A DNA stretch of 36,011 bases from Caryophanon sp. (GTDB taxonomy: Bacteria; Bacillota; Bacilli; Bacillales_A; Planococcaceae), in assembly GCA_018384745.1 (NCBI GenBank), contig JAHAYH010000095.1:1-36011 (forward strand). Direction: 5' to 3'. The notes beneath the pieces were generated by a model. That model worked only from the letters and a program-made list of their open reading frames with translations. It had not been told where the DNA came from and did no database searches. The first letter of the stretch is position 1; the number at the start of each line of letters is the position of its first letter. The position numbers were made by a program, and so were the translations under genes. Below are positions 4,082 through 15,599 of this stretch, one piece after another.

Positions 4082-5698
4082 TTATTTTTTTCGATTTAAC
4101 CATAATTGATATTGCGCCATTTTACGACCAAATGGCAATAAAAACCACTCTTTATCGGCAAGTACTTTCGTTTTCGCCACGGTTGTAATAAATACAGCTG
4201 CGCCAATTGCGACAGCTGAACCACCAATGATTGCTGCTTCAAGTCGTGCTGGGAGCGATAATAATTGCTCAAGTATAAAGCTCCAACCGTACACCGCAAG
4301 CATCATGTTAAGCGATGCCAAAAATAGCTTTTGATAATACGATGCTGGTGCAAGTTTCATCGGACGTACACGCTTTAAATAATACATGAGCGACAACGCG
4401 ATGAAAAATAGCCCAATGTTGCTCGCAAACGCAGCTCCTAATACATCAAGTACCGGTACGAGCGTTACGTTCCCAATTAGCTTTAACATAAAGCCAATGA
4501 CTAAAATAACAGCTGGCACCTTTAACTTTCCAAACCCTTGTAACATCGCTGTAAATGTTAGCGTAATCGACAACGGCACAATTTGCAGCACGAAAATGCT
4601 TAGCACAGACGTTAAGCTATCTGTTTTAAAGAGCATGACATTAACGTACGGCATGACGAGCACAAGGCCAAATGACGCAGCCCAACCAAACAGTACCGCT
4701 GCACGATATGTTAGCTGAATAAAGCTATCAGCGTTACGTCCGGTCGTTTTTTTGCACATAACCGCTACCAGTGGCACGATCGCAAGTGCAAGTGAACCTG
4801 CAATGACTGCACCGAGCTGGACGAGCGGCTGTCCACGGTCATAAATACCTTTTGTTTCCTTTGCCACTGTTTCTGTAAAGCCATTTTCAAGCAACGTCGT
4901 GTATACCGTAAACGAGTCGATCATTTGGAAGCATAACAGCACAAGGCCACTCATACTAACGCTTAAGCTATAGAGTGTTAACTCTTTCACAACCGGCCAT
5001 ACACGCAGCTTTTCACCTGTTTGCTGACGCTGTGGAAACAATGCCATGCGTTTAAATACAAACAGTAACAGCACGACGCCTACAAACTCACCAATAGCTG
5101 TTGCCGCTGTTGCGACTTGTCCAGCCCCGTATAGTGAACCGCTATATTTCATGACAAGCCATGAGCCTACTAAAATAATCGATACGCGAATCGCTTGTTC
5201 AACAATTTGCGCATACGCGACCGGCTCCATGCGGCCTTTTGCTTGGAATGAACCTTTTAATACGGCCAATATCGGCATACATAATACGACGAACGAACCG
5301 GTACGCATAAGTGGCGCGAGCTGTTCATCCCCCATGACACGTGCGAGCGCTCCTGCCCCGCTATATAAAATGATGAAACAACTTACAGATAATACAACTA
5401 AATAAAAGAAAGCAATTTTCATAATTTGCAGGCGGCGAAATTCCCGCTGCTGCATCGTTTCGAGCGTATCTGCATCCGCTAACAGCTTAGAGATCGCAAC
5501 GGCAAACCCACTTGCTGTCCAAGCGACGAAAATCGAAATAAACGGATACACTTGCTGATAAATATAAAAGCCTTCATCACCAACTAAATTTTGAAATGGG
5601 ACACGATAAATTGCACCTAAAATTTTTACAATTAATGCAGAAATCGTTAGTAATGCCGCACCTTTCATGTACCCTTTCATACTCCAACTTCCAGCCAT
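4082..5698 (-). CDS. yabM: YabM, SpoVB/MurJ-like polysaccharide (lipid) flippase
   Basis: A 538-residue integral membrane protein of the MVF branch of the MOP flippase superfamily, with about 14 hydrophobic segments. The N-terminal GAALLTISALIVKILGAIYRVPF and the following LVGDEGFYIYQ are typical of SpoVB, YabM, YkvU and YtgP proteins. These move undecaprenyl-linked precursors across the cytoplasmic membrane. Position next to yabN marks it as the YabM orthologue rather than SpoVB itself, so it does not by itself indicate sporulation. The start is placed by AGAGG five bases before the ATG. It heads the yabM-yabN-rqcP unit. spoVT, which precedes it in B. subtilis, is missing. Confidence 0.88.
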   Translation of the reverse strand: MAGSWSMKGYMKGAALLTISALIVKILGAIYRVPFQNLVGDEGFYIYQQVYPFISIFVAWTASGFAVAISKLLADADTLETMQQREFRRLQIMKIAFFYLVVLSVSCFIILYSGAGALARVMGDEQLAPLMRTGSFVVLCMPILAVLKGSFQAKGRMEPVAYAQIVEQAIRVSIILVGSWLVMKYSGSLYGAGQVATAATAIGEFVGVVLLLFVFKRMALFPQRQQTGEKLRVWPVVKELTLYSLSVSMSGLVLLCFQMIDSFTVYTTLLENGFTETVAKETKGIYDRGQPLVQLGAVIAGSLALAIVPLVAVMCKKTTGRNADSFIQLTYRAAVLFGWAASFGLVLVMPYVNVMLFKTDSLTSVLSIFVLQIVPLSITLTFTAMLQGFGKLKVPAVILVIGFMLKLIGNVTLVPVLDVLGAAFASNIGLFFIALSLMYYLKRVRPMKLAPASYYQKLFLASLNMMLAVYGWSFILEQLLSLPARLEAAIIGGSAVAIGAAVFITTVAKTKVLADKEWFLLPFGRKMAQYQLWLNRKK

Positions 5699-5910: not shown

Positions 5911-5936
5911 GTTTAAATGAACATACTGACGGGTAC
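5911..5936 (+). promoter_or_regulatory. SigB-type promoter for the 5971 gene
   Basis: GTTTAA (5911-5916), a 14-base spacer, then GGGTAC (5931-5936). The B. subtilis SigB consensus is GTTTAA, 12-15 bases, GGGTAT, so only the last base differs. It lies about 35 bases before the start codon, leaving room for a short leader. Confidence 0.68.
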
Positions 5937-5970
5937 TTTTGTTAATAACTGAACGTAGGAGGTGTTTCAT

Positions 5971-6297
5971 ATGTTATCCGTACAACGTGTAACAGCGACT
6001 CCATCATCTGTGAAGCATATGCAATATGCGTATTTAGAGCATTTACAACTGTATCCTTCCGCTGCTGAAACAGCTGCATATAAGCAACCGTCTAAACAGT
6101 CAGTACAACAAAACGAACCGAGCTTTTTAGACAGACTTGAGCGCGCTCATTTACAAACACCATCAATGAAAGAACGTGGGTTTTTGAAAAAGCGTACGCA
6201 GTTCCGCGAGCAAGAGGAGCTCTTACAGCAAATGAATTATACAAATAGACTTCATTACAGTCAGCTACACAACATAGAGACGTTACACAAATCGTAA
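5971..6297 (+). CDS. small protein of unknown function, putative general stress gene
   Basis: A 108-residue protein that I do not recognise. The ATG at 5971 has an excellent ribosome-binding site (AGGAGGT, seven-base spacer), so it is preferred over the upstream GTG at 5962. The product is soluble, with no membrane segment, signal peptide or cysteine. It is rich in Gln, Leu and charged residues, and the second half (SFLDRLERAHLQTPSMKERG, then KKRTQFREQEELLQQMNY) looks helical. It is one of only two protein genes on the + strand. It stands where spoVT is found in B. subtilis but shows no AbrB-type domain. A SigB-like promoter lies upstream and a two-way terminator downstream, so it is a complete one-gene transcription unit. 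Function unknown; a stress role is inferred only from the promoter. Confidence 0.78.
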   Translation: MLSVQRVTATPSSVKHMQYAYLEHLQLYPSAAETAAYKQPSKQSVQQNEPSFLDRLERAHLQTPSMKERGFLKKRTQFREQEELLQQMNYTNRLHYSQLHNIETLHKS

Positions 6298-6308
6298 GTA
6301 ACAAACAT

Positions 6309-6352
6309 AAAAGAAGGCTATTCATCTAAGCGATGCGTAGCCTTCTTTTTTA
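6309..6352. terminator. bidirectional terminator between the small gene and mfd
   Basis: Stem AAAAGAAGGCTA/TAGCCTTCTTTT (6309-6320 with 6338-6349) with T-rich flanks on both strands. It serves the + strand gene ending at 6297 and mfd, whose stop is at 6353. Confidence 0.88.
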
Positions 6353-9300
6353 TTATGCGATGATCTCTTCTTTACGATGCGTATAAATTTGCTTCATGAC
6401 ATCTTCAAGCACATCAAATAATAGCTGTGTTGACGGTAAATGCTTTTCATCAATCGTCATCACGAGTGACTTCGTCGCATTATCCATCCCAAAGCCAATC
6501 GCTCGGCCGTATTTGTTCGTACCTTGCATCACTTCAGCAACATCAAACAGCTTCGTCGCCTCTTGTGTAAAGTTGATTGTGACAACCGTTTGTTTTAATT
6601 TAATCGCGCGTAGCCCTGTCGTTAATCCCCAAGCTTTCATGCGCGCAACGCGTAACAAACGAATCGTCTCAGATGGTAAGTCGCCGAAGCGGTCCATTAA
6701 CTCATCTGTAATTTCAACGTAGTCTTCCTCAGACGCCATCCCTTTAATGCGCTTATACATTTGAATTTTTTGGTAACCATCTGGAATATACGTATCTGGA
6801 ATGTACGCATTAATTGGCAATACAATTTCAATTTCAACTTTCTCTTCGTAATCATCGCCCATTTGACGTTCTTCAATCGCTTCTTCAAGCATTTGTGAAT
6901 AAAGATCAAAGCCGACTGAATCGATAAAGCCGTGCTGCTGCGAGCCAAGTAAATCACCTGCACCACGAATCGATAAGTCGCGCATCGCAATTTTAAAGCC
7001 AGAGCCAAGCTCCGTAAACTCTTTAATTGCTTGTAGACGCTGCTCTGCTACTTCCGTTAATACTTTTTCACGCTGATACGTAAAGTACGCATAAGCGACG
7101 CGATTGGAGCGCCCTACACGTCCTCGTAATTGATACAGCTGTGATAAGCCCATTCTGTCAGCATCATGCACAATTAACGTGTTCACATTTGGAATGTCGA
7201 CGCCTGTTTCAATAATCGTCGTTGTAACAAGCACATCGTAATCGCCTTCTAAAAATGAAATGATGACTTCCTCAAGCTCCACCTCGGTCATGCGGCCATG
7301 TGCATAACCAACGCGCGCTTCTGGAACAAGCTGGCGAATTTCTTCCACTTTACTTGCCATTTCAGCAACGCGATTGAATAAATAAAACACTTGCCCACCG
7401 CGTGCCATTTCACGTTCGATTGCCTCACGAATTAACGCACCGCCATACTCCATAACGTACGTTTGTACGGGGAAGCGGTTAGCTGGTGGCGTTTCAATGA
7501 CCGATAAATCTCGCACGCCGACCATCGACATATGCAGCGTTCGTGGAATCGGTGTTGCCGTTAATGTCAGCACATCGACGTTCGTTTTTAATTGCTTAAT
7601 TTTTTCTTTATGCGTAACACCAAATCGCTGCTCTTCATCGACAATGAGCAAACCTAAGTCGTGATACACAACATCTTTTGATAATAAGCGATGCGTACCA
7701 ATAACAATATCAACTGTGCCATCCTTTAAGCCACGGAGCGTTTCTGTTTGCTGCTTACGCGTACGGAAGCGGCTTAGTAAGCCAACAGAAATCGGGAAAT
7801 CCGCAAAGCGCTCCTTTATCGTTTCAAAGTGCTGCTGCGCTAAAATCGTCGTCGGCACTAAAAATGCTACTTGCTTACCATCCATAATCGCTTTAAACGC
7901 CGCGCGAATCGCAACTTCCGTTTTACCGTACCCTACGTCACCACAAACGAGACGGTCCATCGGGCGTTCGCGCTCCATGTCCGCTTTCACTTCGATAATT
8001 GTGCGTAGCTGGTCTTCTGTTTCTTCATACGGGAACGCCGCTTCAAATGCGCGCACATCGTCACTATCAGGCGAGAACGCATAGCCTTTTTCCGCCTCAC
8101 GCTTTGCATACAGCTTAATTAAATCGTCCGCAATATCATGTACAGCTTTTGTCACTTTCGCTTTCGTACGCTTCCATTCTGCGCCGCCTAGTTTATGCAG
8201 CTTTGGCTCACGTTCTTCAGAGCCGACGTATTTTTGAATTAAATCAATTTGCTCGATCGGCACGTATAACTTATCATCGCCACGATAACGAATATGTAAA
8301 TAATCGCGGTGAATGCCACCTACTTCGACCGTTTCAACACCGATATATTTCCCGATCCCGTGCTGCACGTGAACGATGTAGTCGCCCTCTTTCATTTCTG
8401 TATAGCTTTTAATGCGCTCTGCATTCGTCATCTTTTGAGGACGTGTGCGCTTTTTCGCCGGCAACTTAAACAGCTCATCCTCTGTCACAACCGCTAAGCG
8501 TTGCGGTGGCAACTCAAAGCCCGCCTTTAATGGTAAATCAAGCGCATACAGTCCCGCTCCATTTGGTGAGCCTTCCGTTACTGTTAAATCATAATCCGCA
8601 AGCAGCTCAACCATTTTCGTGACGCGCTCTTGGCCATCCGCTAAAAATAGCACCGTGAACCCTTCTGCACGCCAGCGCTGCACCTCTTGCTTAAACAGTG
8701 GAATTTGCCCTTGGAATTGCTGCATCGGCTTACATGTGAAGTTCTCGGTATGTTGGAACGTTACACCGTTAAATGTGCGCGCAAACAACGCAAAATGAAC
8801 GATTGTTTGCTTTAGCATCGCTAGCACTTCTTTAAACGAATAGCTTGCTTTCACATCGTGTACAAGCTTCCCTTCCTCAATGAGTGCCATAAACCATTCT
8901 TGTTCCTCGCGCTCCCAAGCATCCATCACTTCCTGTACACGCCCTAGCTCATCAATAAAGACGATGCCATGCGGTGAGAAATAATCGCCTAAATATGTTT
9001 GCTCGTCATATAGTAGCGTACCGTATTTATTGACGTAGCTTGGGATGATGTTTTGTTGCAGCTGTTCAATATCATGTTGCACGTGAATGCGCAGTGCTTC
9101 TTTCGTATCTGCCTTTTTTACTTTCGCGACGCTTTGCGTTAGCGCTTCTTCTAAACGATGCGCAATCGTCATCTTCTGCTCGCGCGTAAAAATAAACTCC
9201 GCAGCTGGTAAAAGACGCAGCTGTTGAAGCTTTGTGATCGAACGTTGTGTTTCTGCTGAAAACGTGCGAATGGAATCAACTTCGGTATCAAATAATTCGA

Positions 9301-9880
9301 CGCGAATTGGGTTCTCCTCATACGGCGGATAAATATCTAAAATCCCGCCACGAACAGCGAACTCCCCTGGTGATGTCACCATTTCCCCGCGCGTATAGCC
9401 CATGACAACAAGCTCTTCCATCCATGCATCTATATCAATTTCTTCGCCGACAGCTGTTTGTAACATATGTTGCTGCCACTGCTCTGGTGCCATCATCGGC
9501 TTACGCATTCCGGCAATAGGAATGATGTACACACCGACTTTACGATGGGCAAGTGCATCAAGCGTTAAAATACGCTGTGCGCGCAGCTCTGGGCTTGCCA
9601 TCGTCATGTCCGCTGCAATAAACTCATCTGCTGGGTAATAATATACATGCTCTTGTCCAACTAACGCTTGAAAATCTTCAACAAGTTTTTGCGCCTGTAA
9701 TAAATTCGACGTTAAAACGTATACGGGCTTTTGTAATGTTTCAAATGCTGTATGAATAAATGCCGGTCGAGCCCCTGCTGTCACACCTGTAACTAAATGA
9801 TGCAATCCTTCTTTTTCTAACATCGTGATAAACGAACGAATATGTTTATCCTCATATAAAAGTTGCGTTAATGCTTCCAT
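6353..9880 (-). CDS. mfd: transcription-repair coupling factor Mfd
   Basis: A full-length 1175-residue Mfd. In order it has the UvrB-like N-terminal module, the RNA polymerase interaction domain (EGDYIVHVQHGIGKYIGVE), a RecG-like SF2 translocase with Walker A CGDVGYGKTEVAIRAAF and Walker B DEEQRFG, the RGRVGRSNR motif, and a C-terminal regulatory domain. Mfd uses ATP to push stalled RNA polymerase off damaged template and recruits UvrA. The AGGGAGG before the start is 13 bases away, longer than usual. A terminator (9921-9953) separates it from pth. B. subtilis fin, the anti-SigF gene between pth and mfd, is absent. Confidence 0.97.
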   Translation of the reverse strand: MEALTQLLYEDKHIRSFITMLEKEGLHHLVTGVTAGARPAFIHTAFETLQKPVYVLTSNLLQAQKLVEDFQALVGQEHVYYYPADEFIAADMTMASPELRAQRILTLDALAHRKVGVYIIPIAGMRKPMMAPEQWQQHMLQTAVGEEIDIDAWMEELVVMGYTRGEMVTSPGEFAVRGGILDIYPPYEENPIRVELFDTEVDSIRTFSAETQRSITKLQQLRLLPAAEFIFTREQKMTIAHRLEEALTQSVAKVKKADTKEALRIHVQHDIEQLQQNIIPSYVNKYGTLLYDEQTYLGDYFSPHGIVFIDELGRVQEVMDAWEREEQEWFMALIEEGKLVHDVKASYSFKEVLAMLKQTIVHFALFARTFNGVTFQHTENFTCKPMQQFQGQIPLFKQEVQRWRAEGFTVLFLADGQERVTKMVELLADYDLTVTEGSPNGAGLYALDLPLKAGFELPPQRLAVVTEDELFKLPAKKRTRPQKMTNAERIKSYTEMKEGDYIVHVQHGIGKYIGVETVEVGGIHRDYLHIRYRGDDKLYVPIEQIDLIQKYVGSEEREPKLHKLGGAEWKRTKAKVTKAVHDIADDLIKLYAKREAEKGYAFSPDSDDVRAFEAAFPYEETEDQLRTIIEVKADMERERPMDRLVCGDVGYGKTEVAIRAAFKAIMDGKQVAFLVPTTILAQQHFETIKERFADFPISVGLLSRFRTRKQQTETLRGLKDGTVDIVIGTHRLLSKDVVYHDLGLLIVDEEQRFGVTHKEKIKQLKTNVDVLTLTATPIPRTLHMSMVGVRDLSVIETPPANRFPVQTYVMEYGGALIREAIEREMARGGQVFYLFNRVAEMASKVEEIRQLVPEARVGYAHGRMTEVELEEVIISFLEGDYDVLVTTTIIETGVDIPNVNTLIVHDADRMGLSQLYQLRGRVGRSNRVAYAYFTYQREKVLTEVAEQRLQAIKEFTELGSGFKIAMRDLSIRGAGDLLGSQQHGFIDSVGFDLYSQMLEEAIEERQMGDDYEEKVEIEIVLPINAYIPDTYIPDGYQKIQMYKRIKGMASEEDYVEITDELMDRFGDLPSETIRLLRVARMKAWGLTTGLRAIKLKQTVVTINFTQEATKLFDVAEVMQGTNKYGRAIGFGMDNATKSLVMTIDEKHLPSTQLLFDVLEDVMKQIYTHRKEEIIA

Positions 9881-9920
9881 ATAAAATGAAAAGCCTCCCT
9901 TCTATGTTGCCGCTCTATAC

Positions 9921-9953
9921 AGAAAAAGGAGGTGTCGAATGAACAGCCTCCTT
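9921..9953 (-). terminator. Rho-independent terminator after pth
   Basis: On the - strand AAGGAGG, a bulged C and TGT pair with ACACCTCCTT around a short loop, followed by TTTTTCT. The stem spans 9926-9953. Confidence 0.75.
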
Positions 9954-9966
9954 ACTTCGCTTTTTA

Positions 9967-10846: not shown

Positions 10847-11500
10847 TTAATCTTCACGACCTGGCTTTCCAGGATCTAATTTTTCACCTGTTGCCTCGAC
10901 GTCATCCGCTGTTACCGCAGCATCTTCTGGATCTACATCCTCAGCAGGTGGTGTTGGCGGTGTCACTGTCGCTAACGTATAATCGTCATCATTTAAAATT
11001 TCAAATTTAATTTTATCGCGAACATCTGCTAATGATAATGTATCACCAACACCAAGCTCCGAAATATCCACCTCAATTGAGTCTGGAATATCAGACGGCT
11101 TTACGCGAATTTTTAAGTCTACGTTTGGTTGTGTTAATACGCCACCTTCTTTAACACCTACTGATTCACCAACGATTGAAATTGGTACATCAACCTCTAG
11201 CTCCTCTTTCATGTTAATTGAAAGCAAGTCAAAGTGCTTCACTTGATTTTTTAGCGCATCACGTTGAATTTCATTAATAATTGCACTATACGTTGTGCCA
11301 TCTAATTTAATTTTAAAAATGTGGTTAATGCCGTTGCGCTGTACTTCACGAGCCATCTCTTTGTACTCGAAGTAAACGGGTGTCGTTTCCTCTACGTTAT
11401 AGCCATAAATAACACTTGGTAATTTACCTTCGTTTCTTAATTGGGTTAGTATTGAGTGACTCCCAGTTTCACGCTTATTTGCTGTAATGACTGTATTCAT
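10847..11500 (-). CDS. ctc: 50S ribosomal protein L25 / general stress protein Ctc
   Basis: A 217-residue long-form L25 (TL5/Ctc). The N-terminal L25 domain is followed by the C-terminal beta domain (VPISIVGESVGVKEGGVL, then LKIRVKPSDIPDSIEVDIS) and an acidic, Pro-rich tail. It binds 5S rRNA in the large subunit and is induced by stress in Bacillus. An AGGGGA site precedes the ATG. A near-perfect SigB promoter at 11561-11585 drives it. In B. subtilis ctc directly follows prs; here a glycosylation cassette separates them. Confidence 0.95.
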   Translation of the reverse strand: MNTVITANKRETGSHSILTQLRNEGKLPSVIYGYNVEETTPVYFEYKEMAREVQRNGINHIFKIKLDGTTYSAIINEIQRDALKNQVKHFDLLSINMKEELEVDVPISIVGESVGVKEGGVLTQPNVDLKIRVKPSDIPDSIEVDISELGVGDTLSLADVRDKIKFEILNDDDYTLATVTPPTPPAEDVDPEDAAVTADDVEATGEKLDPGKPGRED

Positions 11501-11560: not shown

Positions 11561-11585
11561 ATACCCTTGAAACATATATTTAAAC
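11561..11585 (-). promoter_or_regulatory. SigB promoter of ctc
   Basis: On the - strand GTTTAA (11580-11585), a 13-base spacer and GGGTAT (11561-11566), identical to the SigB consensus in both boxes. The predicted leader is about 50 bases. ctc is a classical SigB-dependent gene in B. subtilis. Confidence 0.85.
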
Positions 11586-11601: not shown

Positions 11602-12000
11602 TTACGATTTAAACGCAAAATAACGCTGCCCTGCATAGTTGCAAAGAGTGAATAATACCATACCAACAGCCATTGCAATATTCTCCTGTATACGAACCGA
11701 TGTATCACTTAGGACGAACAACACAAGCGGTTTAGCGAGCGCATACGCAATAACGTAGCACACGACAATATTGAGTGCGAATTTCACGACGTACTTCCAT
11801 GATTTATCCGTTTGTTGGAATGTGAAATACTTATTTAAAAAATAGCTTAAAATGCTCGCTAAAAAATAATTCCAAAACGATGCACTCCAGTAGCTAAAGC
11901 CTGCGATATTATACAGCCCAAACATAATTCCAGTACCGACAACAGTATTAATGATACCGACAATTAAAAACTTTATAAACGTTTTATCAATTTTCTTCAT
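11602..12000 (-). CDS. GtrA/GtcA-like membrane flippase
   Basis: A 132-residue protein with four membrane helices, of the GtrA-like family (FIKFLIVGIINTVVGTGIMF at the start, NYFLASILSYFLNKYFTFQ in the middle). Such proteins are thought to flip undecaprenyl-phosphate-linked sugars to the outside of the membrane. The start overlaps the preceding glycosyltransferase by 14 bases, so the two are translationally coupled. It is the last gene of the three-gene cassette. No clear terminator follows, so read-through into ctc is possible. The acceptor polymer (teichoic acid or another glycan) cannot be told from sequence. Confidence 0.88.
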   Translation of the reverse strand: MKKIDKTFIKFLIVGIINTVVGTGIMFGLYNIAGFSYWSASFWNYFLASILSYFLNKYFTFQQTDKSWKYVVKFALNIVVCYVIAYALAKPLVLFVLSDTSVRIQENIAMAVGMVLFTLCNYAGQRYFAFKS

Positions 12001-12913
12001 CTGTTGTTTTCTCCGCTACGATGTATCGTGGTCGCTTGCGTACTTCATCATAAATGCGCGCAATATAATAACCAATAATCCCGAGACTTACCATCATAAT
12101 ACTGCCAATAATAAGTAGTAATAAAATAACGGTCGTAAAACCTTCTAGCGCTTCACCGTTAAAAAACTGGACGAACGCATTCACACCAACGACAATAGCA
12201 AGCAACGAAAATAAGATGCCGAGCGCCGTTACAATTTGCATCGGCAGCATTGAAAAGGACGTCACATTTGTAATTGCATAACGTACAAGCCCCCTTAATG
12301 ACCATGTCGTTTCTCCTTCTACACGCTCGTTGACAACGTACGCTACAGAGGTCGAACGATACCCGAGCCAATACGTGAGCGCGCGGAAAAACAGTTGATT
12401 TTCTTGTAGCTGTAAATACGAATCAACAACTTTACGATCAAGCAGCTTATAATCTGATGAGCTTTCCATATTAAATTTTGTAATGCGGCGAATCGTTTCA
12501 TAAAACAGCTTTGATGCACCTTTATAAAAGGCAGACTCTTTGCCTCGGTGCTCTTTTACACCTTCAACAATTTCGTAGCCTTGCTCCCAAAGTGCATACA
12601 TATCTAATATTTTCTCTGGTGGATGCTGCATATCTGAATCCATCACAACAACACATTCTCCGCGTGCCTCTGATAAGCCAGCGTAAATAGCAGCCTCCTT
12701 CCCAAAGTTACGTGATAAGCAAATACCGCGTACGTTTATATGCTCTATGCTCGCCTTTTCAATTTCATGCCACGTTTCATCGCGCGGTCCATCGTTTACA
12801 AAAATAATCTCATACGACGCAGTAAACTGTTCGAGCGTTTTATGCAAGCAAGCTACTGCATAATGAATACCTTTCTTTTCCTTATATGTTGGCAATACAA
12901 TCGACAGCTTCAT
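11987..12913 (-). CDS. family 2 glycosyltransferase, GtrB/CsbB type
   Basis: A 308-residue GT2 enzyme resembling GtrB, CsbB and dolichol-phosphate mannose synthases. It begins KLSIVLPTYKEKKGI, has EIIFVNDGPRDETW, SRNFGKEAAIYAGL and the metal-binding DSDMQHPP, and ends with two membrane helices near residues 225-285. It is expected to load a sugar onto undecaprenyl phosphate inside the cell for flipping by the GtrA-like partner. Its ATG shares one base with the stop of the upstream gene (TAATG). In B. subtilis csbB is SigB-regulated; whether that holds here is not visible. Confidence 0.92.
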   Translation of the reverse strand: MKLSIVLPTYKEKKGIHYAVACLHKTLEQFTASYEIIFVNDGPRDETWHEIEKASIEHINVRGICLSRNFGKEAAIYAGLSEARGECVVVMDSDMQHPPEKILDMYALWEQGYEIVEGVKEHRGKESAFYKGASKLFYETIRRITKFNMESSSDYKLLDRKVVDSYLQLQENQLFFRALTYWLGYRSTSVAYVVNERVEGETTWSLRGLVRYAITNVTSFSMLPMQIVTALGILFSLLAIVVGVNAFVQFFNGEALEGFTTVILLLLIIGSIMMVSLGIIGYYIARIYDEVRKRPRYIVAEKTTDEEN

Positions 12914-14454
12914 TAGTCCATCTCCCTAAACTTCACTACAGCTGTTCCATCAATGACTTGTACAGAAGAAGCATTCGGCCAAACATCCATTTGCTTAAAC
13001 TGCGTTGTCTTTTGAATGCGCTCAATTTGCTGCGCATCTGCTGCCTTTAATTGCACACCATAATACACATCATACAGCTTTTGATAATGGAACGAGGTCG
13101 GTAAAAAAATCTCGCCTGACGAGCCTGTTATCGATGGAATCGCTTCTGGAATATCTATTGAAGTAAGTGGTGAATGTAAGCGTGTATAGCCTAGCACTGC
13201 AATATTTTTCACCTCATGATAATTTTCAAGTGCTTCAATACGCATTAATACACGGTCGGCTAATGCAAATGACTTCTCATATTTAATGTTCATATTGAAA
13301 TACGCGATATTGGCAATAATGCCAAAATTAATCACAACCGCAATAACTGAAAGCCATGTTGTAGAAGCAGCTATTTTTATCGGCATACGCATTGATACAT
13401 CAACCTTATCAAAGAAGCAAAGCGCAAGTACATATACCGTTACATTCGCATACACCATCAGCATATGGTATTGTACGTCACCTGATGTGAAATACACTGC
13501 ATAATATGCAATTGGGATGAGCGCTATAATGATGCATGTAAGTAACAGCTTCCCAACATGCTTATATAACTTTTGCTGCACACTAAAGTACACAGTAAAC
13601 AAGATGAGTAGCATTGCTAAAACGATATGAAGGAAATCCCATGTGCGCAGTGCACCAACTGTATACAGTCCTTCAAAGAAAAACTTCAGCATTTGCTCAT
13701 GTATTGTATAGCGCAGTGCCCATATTTCACTTAGTGACGGAATTCCTGCTGTATCGAGCCCTTGGTAGCTTACAATTAACCCTTGCATTTGATAAATTTT
13801 GTAATGAATTAAATAAAGTGCCATACCACCTGTAAATACAATGAGCATTTGACCGCTTTGTACAAACAACGCTTTCACGCTATGACCTTTTATTAATAGT
13901 TGCTGTAATGCAAAAACACAAATAAATGCCAAAATAATTGTTAAGTTTGCCTGATAAATACCAACGCTTATATACGTCAATAAAATACCTACTAGCCAGC
14001 CGTAGTGCCATAGCTTTGTGACAACAAGTGCCGAAATCGCGACCAATATACCTAGCATATAGCCATCTGCGGTAAACATATATGAAAACGTTGATGTCAC
14101 CGTAGGAAAAGCAACAACGACTCCACCAATAACAATTGCTGTGCTATTTTTTTGAATGTCGAGAAGAATCACAATAAGAAGCGCTACAACACTTAAATAA
14201 AATAGCGAAAACACACCATTTACCCACGGCAAATCAAAATAAGAGCTCCACATGCTCGCATATTGTAAAAAGAACCGACCAGAAGCGGTCTTATTTTGCT
14301 CCTCATGTATATTTGAAAAGCTATCATGCGTATGGTAATGATTTAAAAAAATAAAGCTATGAACTAGCAATCCAATAATAAATGCTGCAACGAATGCCCA
14401 TTTTGATTGCTTCGATAAACGGCTCGTTATATTGCGCAGCCACACATCAATCAT
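12913..14454 (-). CDS. GtrC-like multi-pass membrane glucosyltransferase
   Basis: A 513-residue membrane protein. The N-terminal two thirds hold roughly ten or more hydrophobic helices, with an external loop after the first (NHYHTHDSFSNIHEEQNKT) that carries acidic residues typical of GT-C enzymes. The last 120 or so residues form a soluble domain. Architecture and context match the glucosyltransferase (GtrII/GtrC-like) partner of GtrA/GtrB systems, which transfers the lipid-linked sugar to an outer polymer; YfhO plays this part in B. subtilis. The start follows AGGAGG. It is the first gene of the cassette. Identity of the acceptor is unknown. Confidence 0.75.
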   Translation of the reverse strand: MIDVWLRNITSRLSKQSKWAFVAAFIIGLLVHSFIFLNHYHTHDSFSNIHEEQNKTASGRFFLQYASMWSSYFDLPWVNGVFSLFYLSVVALLIVILLDIQKNSTAIVIGGVVVAFPTVTSTFSYMFTADGYMLGILVAISALVVTKLWHYGWLVGILLTYISVGIYQANLTIILAFICVFALQQLLIKGHSVKALFVQSGQMLIVFTGGMALYLIHYKIYQMQGLIVSYQGLDTAGIPSLSEIWALRYTIHEQMLKFFFEGLYTVGALRTWDFLHIVLAMLLILFTVYFSVQQKLYKHVGKLLLTCIIIALIPIAYYAVYFTSGDVQYHMLMVYANVTVYVLALCFFDKVDVSMRMPIKIAASTTWLSVIAVVINFGIIANIAYFNMNIKYEKSFALADRVLMRIEALENYHEVKNIAVLGYTRLHSPLTSIDIPEAIPSITGSSGEIFLPTSFHYQKLYDVYYGVQLKAADAQQIERIQKTTQFKQMDVWPNASSVQVIDGTAVVKFREMD

Positions 14455-14639: not shown

Positions 14640-15599
14640 TTAATCAAATAAAATACTTACAGATTTATTTTCATAAACACGAGAAATTGCATCTGCCATT
14701 AATTTTGCTACTGAAAGCTCAACGATTTTTGGTGATTTTTTATCTTCTGATAATTGAATTGTGTTTGTTACAATTAATTCTTTAATTACAGAGTTATCAA
14801 TACGCTCGATTGCTGGACCAGATAATACTGGGTGTGAACATGAAGCGTAAACTTCTTTTGCACCAGCTTCTTTTAATGCGTTTGCACCGATTGTAATTGT
14901 ACCAGCAGTATCGATGATGTCATCAATTAAGATACAAATTTTACCGTCTACATTACCAACGATATTCATTACTTCTGCTACATTTGGCTTCGGACGACGT
15001 TTATCGATAATTGCGATTGGCGCTTTTAGGCGCTCCGCTAATTTACGAGCACGTGTTACACCACCGTGGTCAGGAGATACAACAACGATATCTTCTGAGT
15101 TGAAGCCTTTGCTTGAGAAGTAATCCCCAATTAAAGGTACTGCTACTAAGTGGTCGATTAAAATATCGAAGAAACCTTGAATTTGTGGTGCGTGTAAATC
15201 TAAAACGATTACGCGTGTTGCACCAGCAGTTTCTAAAAGATTTGCAACTAATTTCGCTGTGATTGGCTCACGAGCACGAGCTTTACGGTCTTGACGAGCA
15301 TACCCGTAATAAGGCATTACAACGTTGATTGTACGTGCAGACGCACGTTTAACAGCGTCAATCATAATTAAAAGTTCCATTAAATGTTCATTTACTGGCG
15401 CAGACGTTGATTGCACGATGAATACATCGCAACCACGAATGCTTTCTTCAATGCTAATTTGCACTTCACCATCAGAGAAAGTTTTTACTGAAGATTTACC
15501 AAGTTCAATGCCCATTTCTTGTGCAATTTCTTGCGCAAGTGGGTTGTTTGAATTTAATGAGAAAAGTTTTAATTTTGAGTCAGCATATTGATACGGCAT
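14640..15599 (-). CDS. prs: ribose-phosphate pyrophosphokinase
   Basis: A 319-residue enzyme that makes PRPP from ribose 5-phosphate and ATP for purine, pyrimidine, histidine and NAD synthesis. It shows the class I signature [17 protein letters not shown] and the PRPP-binding loop [13 protein letters not shown]. Length is typical. GGAGG precedes the ATG. It lies 27 bases after glmU, forming the conserved glmU-prs pair, and a terminator follows directly. Confidence 0.97.

Follow-up and report, generated by a model that had tools for sequence, protein, structure and literature searches.

What is a gene of 108 codons doing between mfd and a spoVB-like gene, reading against its neighbours and apparently carrying a stress promoter of its own? 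A contig of Caryophanon sp. raises this question, and we have addressed it by comparing the whole analysed stretch of 36,011 nucleotides (hereafter the window) with related genomes. The genome to which the window belongs is about 90% complete.

A complete single-gene unit

The unit claimed in the earlier note is present in full. Specifically, the two promoter boxes, the ribosome-binding site and the 108-codon reading frame all occur at the coordinates given in Table 1. The gene lies on the + strand, opposite to all of its neighbours as had been claimed, such that it converges on mfd and diverges from the spoVB-like gene. The hairpin between the gene and mfd has a computed folding energy of -21.8 kcal/mol on the + strand and -23.4 kcal/mol on the - strand, with z about -7.2 for both. 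A simple terminator scan did not pick up this hairpin, yet its strong folding on both strands indicates that the proposed two-way terminator is real. An Rfam search for an RNA element at the gene gave no match.

Table 1. Features of the gene, its neighbours and the ctc-like control (window coordinates)
Feature	Coordinates	Strand	Remarks
SigB-type promoter GTTTAA-N14-GGGTAC	5911..5936	+	GTTTAA 5911-5916, GGGTAC 5931-5936; transcription start expected near 5944
Ribosome-binding site AGGAGGT	5957..5963	+	7 nt before ATG 5971
108-residue protein gene, undescribed family	5971..6297	+	ORF, ATG 5971, stop at 6297
Two-way terminator hairpin, common to gene and mfd	6309..6349	both	folding z -7.16 and -7.23
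mfd, convergent neighbour	6353..9880	-	ORF; named from sequence and position
spoVB-like exporter, divergent neighbour	4082..5698	-	Polysacc_synt 94 bits
SigB-type promoter GTTTAA-N13-GGGTAT, upstream of ctc-like gene	11561..11585	-	positive control
ctc-like L25/TL5 gene	10847..11500	-	Ribosomal_TL5_C and L25p matches; positive control

Elsewhere in the window, genes named by eye for a GtrA-like protein, a glycosyltransferase-like protein and a large membrane protein occupy 11602-14454 (- strand), between prs (14640-15599) and ctc. The contig end (13-716) holds eight tRNA genes (Ser, Asp, Phe, Gly, Ile, Asn, Ser, Glu), and the open reading frames there are shadows of these.

An undescribed protein family under purifying selection

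One sequence profile detected homologues in 26 genomes out of 261 from the bacterial family. These carriers represent five genera and hold the gene at the same locus in the same orientation, which bears out its conservation and synteny among relatives. A homologue is also encoded in the congener record of C. tenue DSM 14152. A wider profile adds three further genera at the same locus, giving eight in all (coded here as g1, g6, g7, g10, g14, g16, g17 and g19); entries from related genomes are not independent of one another. For the neighbouring mfd, the C-terminus has a single match per genome in each of 41 genomes.

Among the members listed, the start codon is preceded by a ribosome-binding site. 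Pairs of relatives give Ka/Ks values of 0.02-0.16, computed only where synonymous sites are unsaturated. Judged by these sequence comparisons, the reading frame encodes a real protein under purifying selection. Searches of Pfam, NCBIfam, PHROGs and PDB sequences with the gene, its homologues and its paralogues yielded only sub-threshold matches, and our literature search found no paper on the gene or on the mfd-spoVB locus in the bacterial family. By these comparisons, the gene belongs to an undescribed Caryophanaceae protein family that is restricted to one bacterial family, save for distant paralogues. A phage or plasmid origin was also considered and rejected, as collections of both gave no match.

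A recurrent SigB-type promoter

The promoter was scored against dinucleotide shuffles with a fixed consensus (GTTTAA, 12-15 nt, GGGTAT; for comparison, see PMC7824861), with the -10 box placed 15-60 nt before the start codon. The window gene scores p=0.001 (0.001-0.004 across shuffle tests), with its -10 box 34 nt before the ATG. The strict pattern GTTTAA-N13/14-GGGTA occurs only four times in 2.15 Mb, compared with one hit for the control pattern in reverse. Of these four sites, one belongs to this gene and another is the promoter of ctc, both within the window. As ctc is a textbook SigB gene, its score (p=0.001) serves as a positive control.

Sites of the same type lie 23-45 nt before the start codon in g1, g14 and g19, and a weaker one is seen in g7. 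Individual scores are 0.002 for one congener (G002), 0.001-0.002 for two g19 members and 0.08 for a third, mostly 0.01-0.09 in g14, and 0.04-0.18 in g7. Combined by group, the values are 3e-5 for g1, 2e-5 for g19, 3e-6 for six representatives of g14 and 0.017 for g7. The matched negative control, spoVT as it diverges from the gene at the same loci, has no SigB site (p 0.99). Moreover, the genome of the window encodes the expected regulator: an rsbT-rsbU-rsbV-rsbW-sigB cluster was read off its contig, with the rsb genes named from their sequences and sigB scoring 406 bits over its cut-off. Thus the claim that the gene has a SigB promoter of its own finds good support in the sequences, and actual dependence on SigB is probable.

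Could the promoter matches nonetheless be accidental or secondary, with the gene expressed mainly from SigA or another factor? A consensus match is no proof, and although 18 of the 23 sigB-bearing carriers have a site at p<0.1, in four genera, the other 5, including C. tenue, lack a clear one. Against this stand the same architecture and distance in separate genera, the negative result for spoVT, and a search of the + strand upstream of the gene that found no SigA-type site. We therefore regard an accidental promoter as improbable.

Two carriers (G017 and G176) are without an intact sigB, and neither has a SigB site. Relative to its sister genome G180 (L138), G176 (L137) is missing about 2.4 kb comprising rsbU, rsbV, rsbW and most of sigB; rsbT and the tail of sigB remain, making this a natural sigB loss. 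However, G180 retains sigB and also has no clear site, so the joint absence of promoter and sigB in G017 and G176 is suggestive only, and this pair does not prove a clean co-loss.

The gene is a neighbour of spoVT, not its substitute

The gene had also been assigned to the slot of spoVT. The neighbourhood is right, but no replacement has taken place: relatives that sporulate have mfd, the gene (reversed), an intact spoVT and spoVB in this order, whereas Caryophanon and genus g7 have lost spoVT and kept the gene. Because relatives carry both, spoVT was lost from beside the gene, and the idea of a SpoVT substitute can be discarded. The gene also has no SpoVT-type sequence (MKATGIVRRIDDLG...).

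Sporulating relatives have about ten sigma-70 matches, compared with 3-5 in the genomes of Caryophanon and g7, where SigF/SigG-like matches (110-165 bits) are absent from the set. In the window, yabP, yabQ and fin were not found at 1996-2280 and 9881-9966, presumably their places by B. subtilis gene order. This fits a loss of sporulation, yet the spoVB-like gene is retained.

The gene might instead be a sporulation gene of this neighbourhood that lingers in non-sporulating Caryophanon, as its neighbours are spoVT and spoVB and it adjoins spoVT in all sporulating carriers. However, it is under selection in Caryophanon and g7, both of which lack spoVT and SigF/SigG-like sigma genes, and most sporulating genera of the bacterial family do not have it. 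The sporulation-gene reading is already unlikely on these grounds, and we give mere lingering very little credence.

Homologues and paralogues with SigD-type promoters

The wider profile revealed a branch of the family that the earlier note had missed. Same-locus homologues occur in three genera: those of g6 and g17 have spoVT on one side and spoVB on the other, and in g10 spoVT is absent. Away from the locus, paralogues were detected within the bacterial family and also in members of four further families of the same class. At the locus, the copies in g6, g17 and g10 have no SigB site and carry SigD sites instead, scored as TMAA, 14-16 nt, NCCGATA (published consensus TAAA-N15-GCCGATAT; PMC5200910), with a combined p of 4e-12 for eight members. 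Six paralogues gathered after the SigD idea had arisen are an independent check of it and give p 2e-8, with one of the six scoring only outside the distance limit. An earlier paralogue set gives p 6e-5, with 3 of 8 clearly positive. The window gene has no SigD promoter upstream (p 0.47), and its genome encodes SigD.

In an Mfd tree, the SigB-type carriers (Caryophanon and four more genera) and the SigD-type carriers (three genera) form two sister clades, both supported (95/86 and 97/92), within a clade of 100/99. In these sequences promoter type follows clade, which makes a switch between SigD and SigB likely. The outer paralogues have SigD-type promoters, so that SigD control is more likely to be ancestral and the switch to have run from SigD to SigB.

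Several families of the class hold an unnamed family of proteins of 116-134 residues with the core ENGYIRxYVxKxNGxKxLIxE (L098-L105, L110, L119, L121, L122, L124-L126), many of them with SigD promoters and none with a match in the family libraries searched. In G237 (L102 916-2240, - strand), a paralogue is the first of three small adjacent genes without a family match. Two proteins of this trio share a similar KYRTGI/AYKRSI tail, also seen in other paralogues.

A possible role at the cell surface or in motility

Three segments are shared across the family: MxVxxIxT at the N-terminus, LLxxLNY at the C-terminus and, between them, a core, ENGYIRxYLxKxNGxRxLIS, whose sequence suggests a beta hairpin. 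The core motif (ENGYIRxYxxKxNG) is present in relatives from g14, g16, g19 and g7, whereas in the three Caryophanon proteins it is gapped or divergent and only the two ends are kept. The similarity of the window copy to the family is carried mainly by these ends and by close relatives. The core segment is likewise missing from the g7 member of G090 (L037 1488-1752), in what the tree suggests is a loss separate from that in Caryophanon. FlaG was weighed for its similar-looking hairpin and SigD control, and was dropped because the gene, its homologues and its paralogues had no Pfam match up to E 1.

A structure model built from two sequences is mostly of low confidence (mean pLDDT 69, pTM 0.33) with a confident C-terminal helix, which would be more in keeping with a small protein that binds a partner than with an enzyme. 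Our best guess is a small helix-forming binding protein whose motility or cell-surface role has been redeployed under stress. The link to motility or the surface is a guess drawn from the SigD control of relatives; none of the family members has a linked motility gene. Caryophanon itself moves by means of peritrichous flagella (PMC6971209).

The sequences themselves establish the gene, the selection on it, and the existence of two types of promoter that divide between the clades. As an explanation, we lean somewhat toward a SigB-controlled monocistronic gene, ancestrally of the SigD regulon, whose small soluble product binds a motility, flagellar or surface partner under stress. Stress would cause the Rsb partner switch to release SigB, whose RNA polymerase would start at the expected site; the monocistronic transcript would have a leader of roughly 27 nt and end at the hairpin. 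The family would ancestrally have belonged to the SigD (motility-phase) regulon, and the mfd-locus copy would have come under SigB in the clade of Caryophanon and four more genera. The protein would probably bind its partner through the conserved C-terminal helix. This partner, for which a component of motility, the flagellum or the cell surface is the likeliest candidate, would be adjusted under stress; both its identity and the effect on it are guesses. We hold it an even call whether this fixed-locus lineage, by passing from SigD to SigB in one sister clade, formed a natural link between stress and motility, with the Caryophanon protein remodelled further through loss of the core motif.

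Alternatively, the gene may encode a plain general stress protein with its own protective role, in which case the resemblance to SigD-controlled proteins would go back to an old paralogy or to one small domain in common, with no functional continuity. SigB sites conserved over four genera and Caryophanon proteins without the core motif agree with this alternative. The two lineages also occupy different slots (mfd|gene|spoVT versus spoVT|gene|spoVB) and share only 14-24% identity, which would allow for an old paralogy. On the other side, profile similarity is full-length (the first g6 homologue reached 33.5 bits before it entered the profile), locus and orientation are the same, and promoter type follows the sister clades. 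On balance a plain stress protein seems rather unlikely. Of the earlier proposal of an undescribed general stress protein, "undescribed" and probable SigB control stand, whereas the stress role is probably derived, given the SigD promoters of the other branch and of most paralogues.

Comparison with known systems

With this gene an undescribed family joins the likely SigB regulon, and a single locus offers an example of a gene whose promoter is of the stress type in one clade and of the motility type in the sister clade. A change of sigma factor thereby becomes directly testable, and the family gains a first handle. SpoVT resembles the window gene in chromosomal neighbourhood only; the gene lies on the opposite strand, is unrelated in sequence and coexists with spoVT in relatives. 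The likeness to the B. subtilis SigB regulon (ctc and other SigB-induced genes) is closer, as it extends to promoter architecture, sigB with its rsb genes, and a small monocistronic gene, but the window protein has no counterpart in the family libraries searched. Finally, whereas the window copy has a SigB site and has lost the core motif, its distant relatives carry TMAA-N15-CCGATA promoters like those of the SigD-controlled small proteins of B. amyloliquefaciens FZB42 (PMC5200910).
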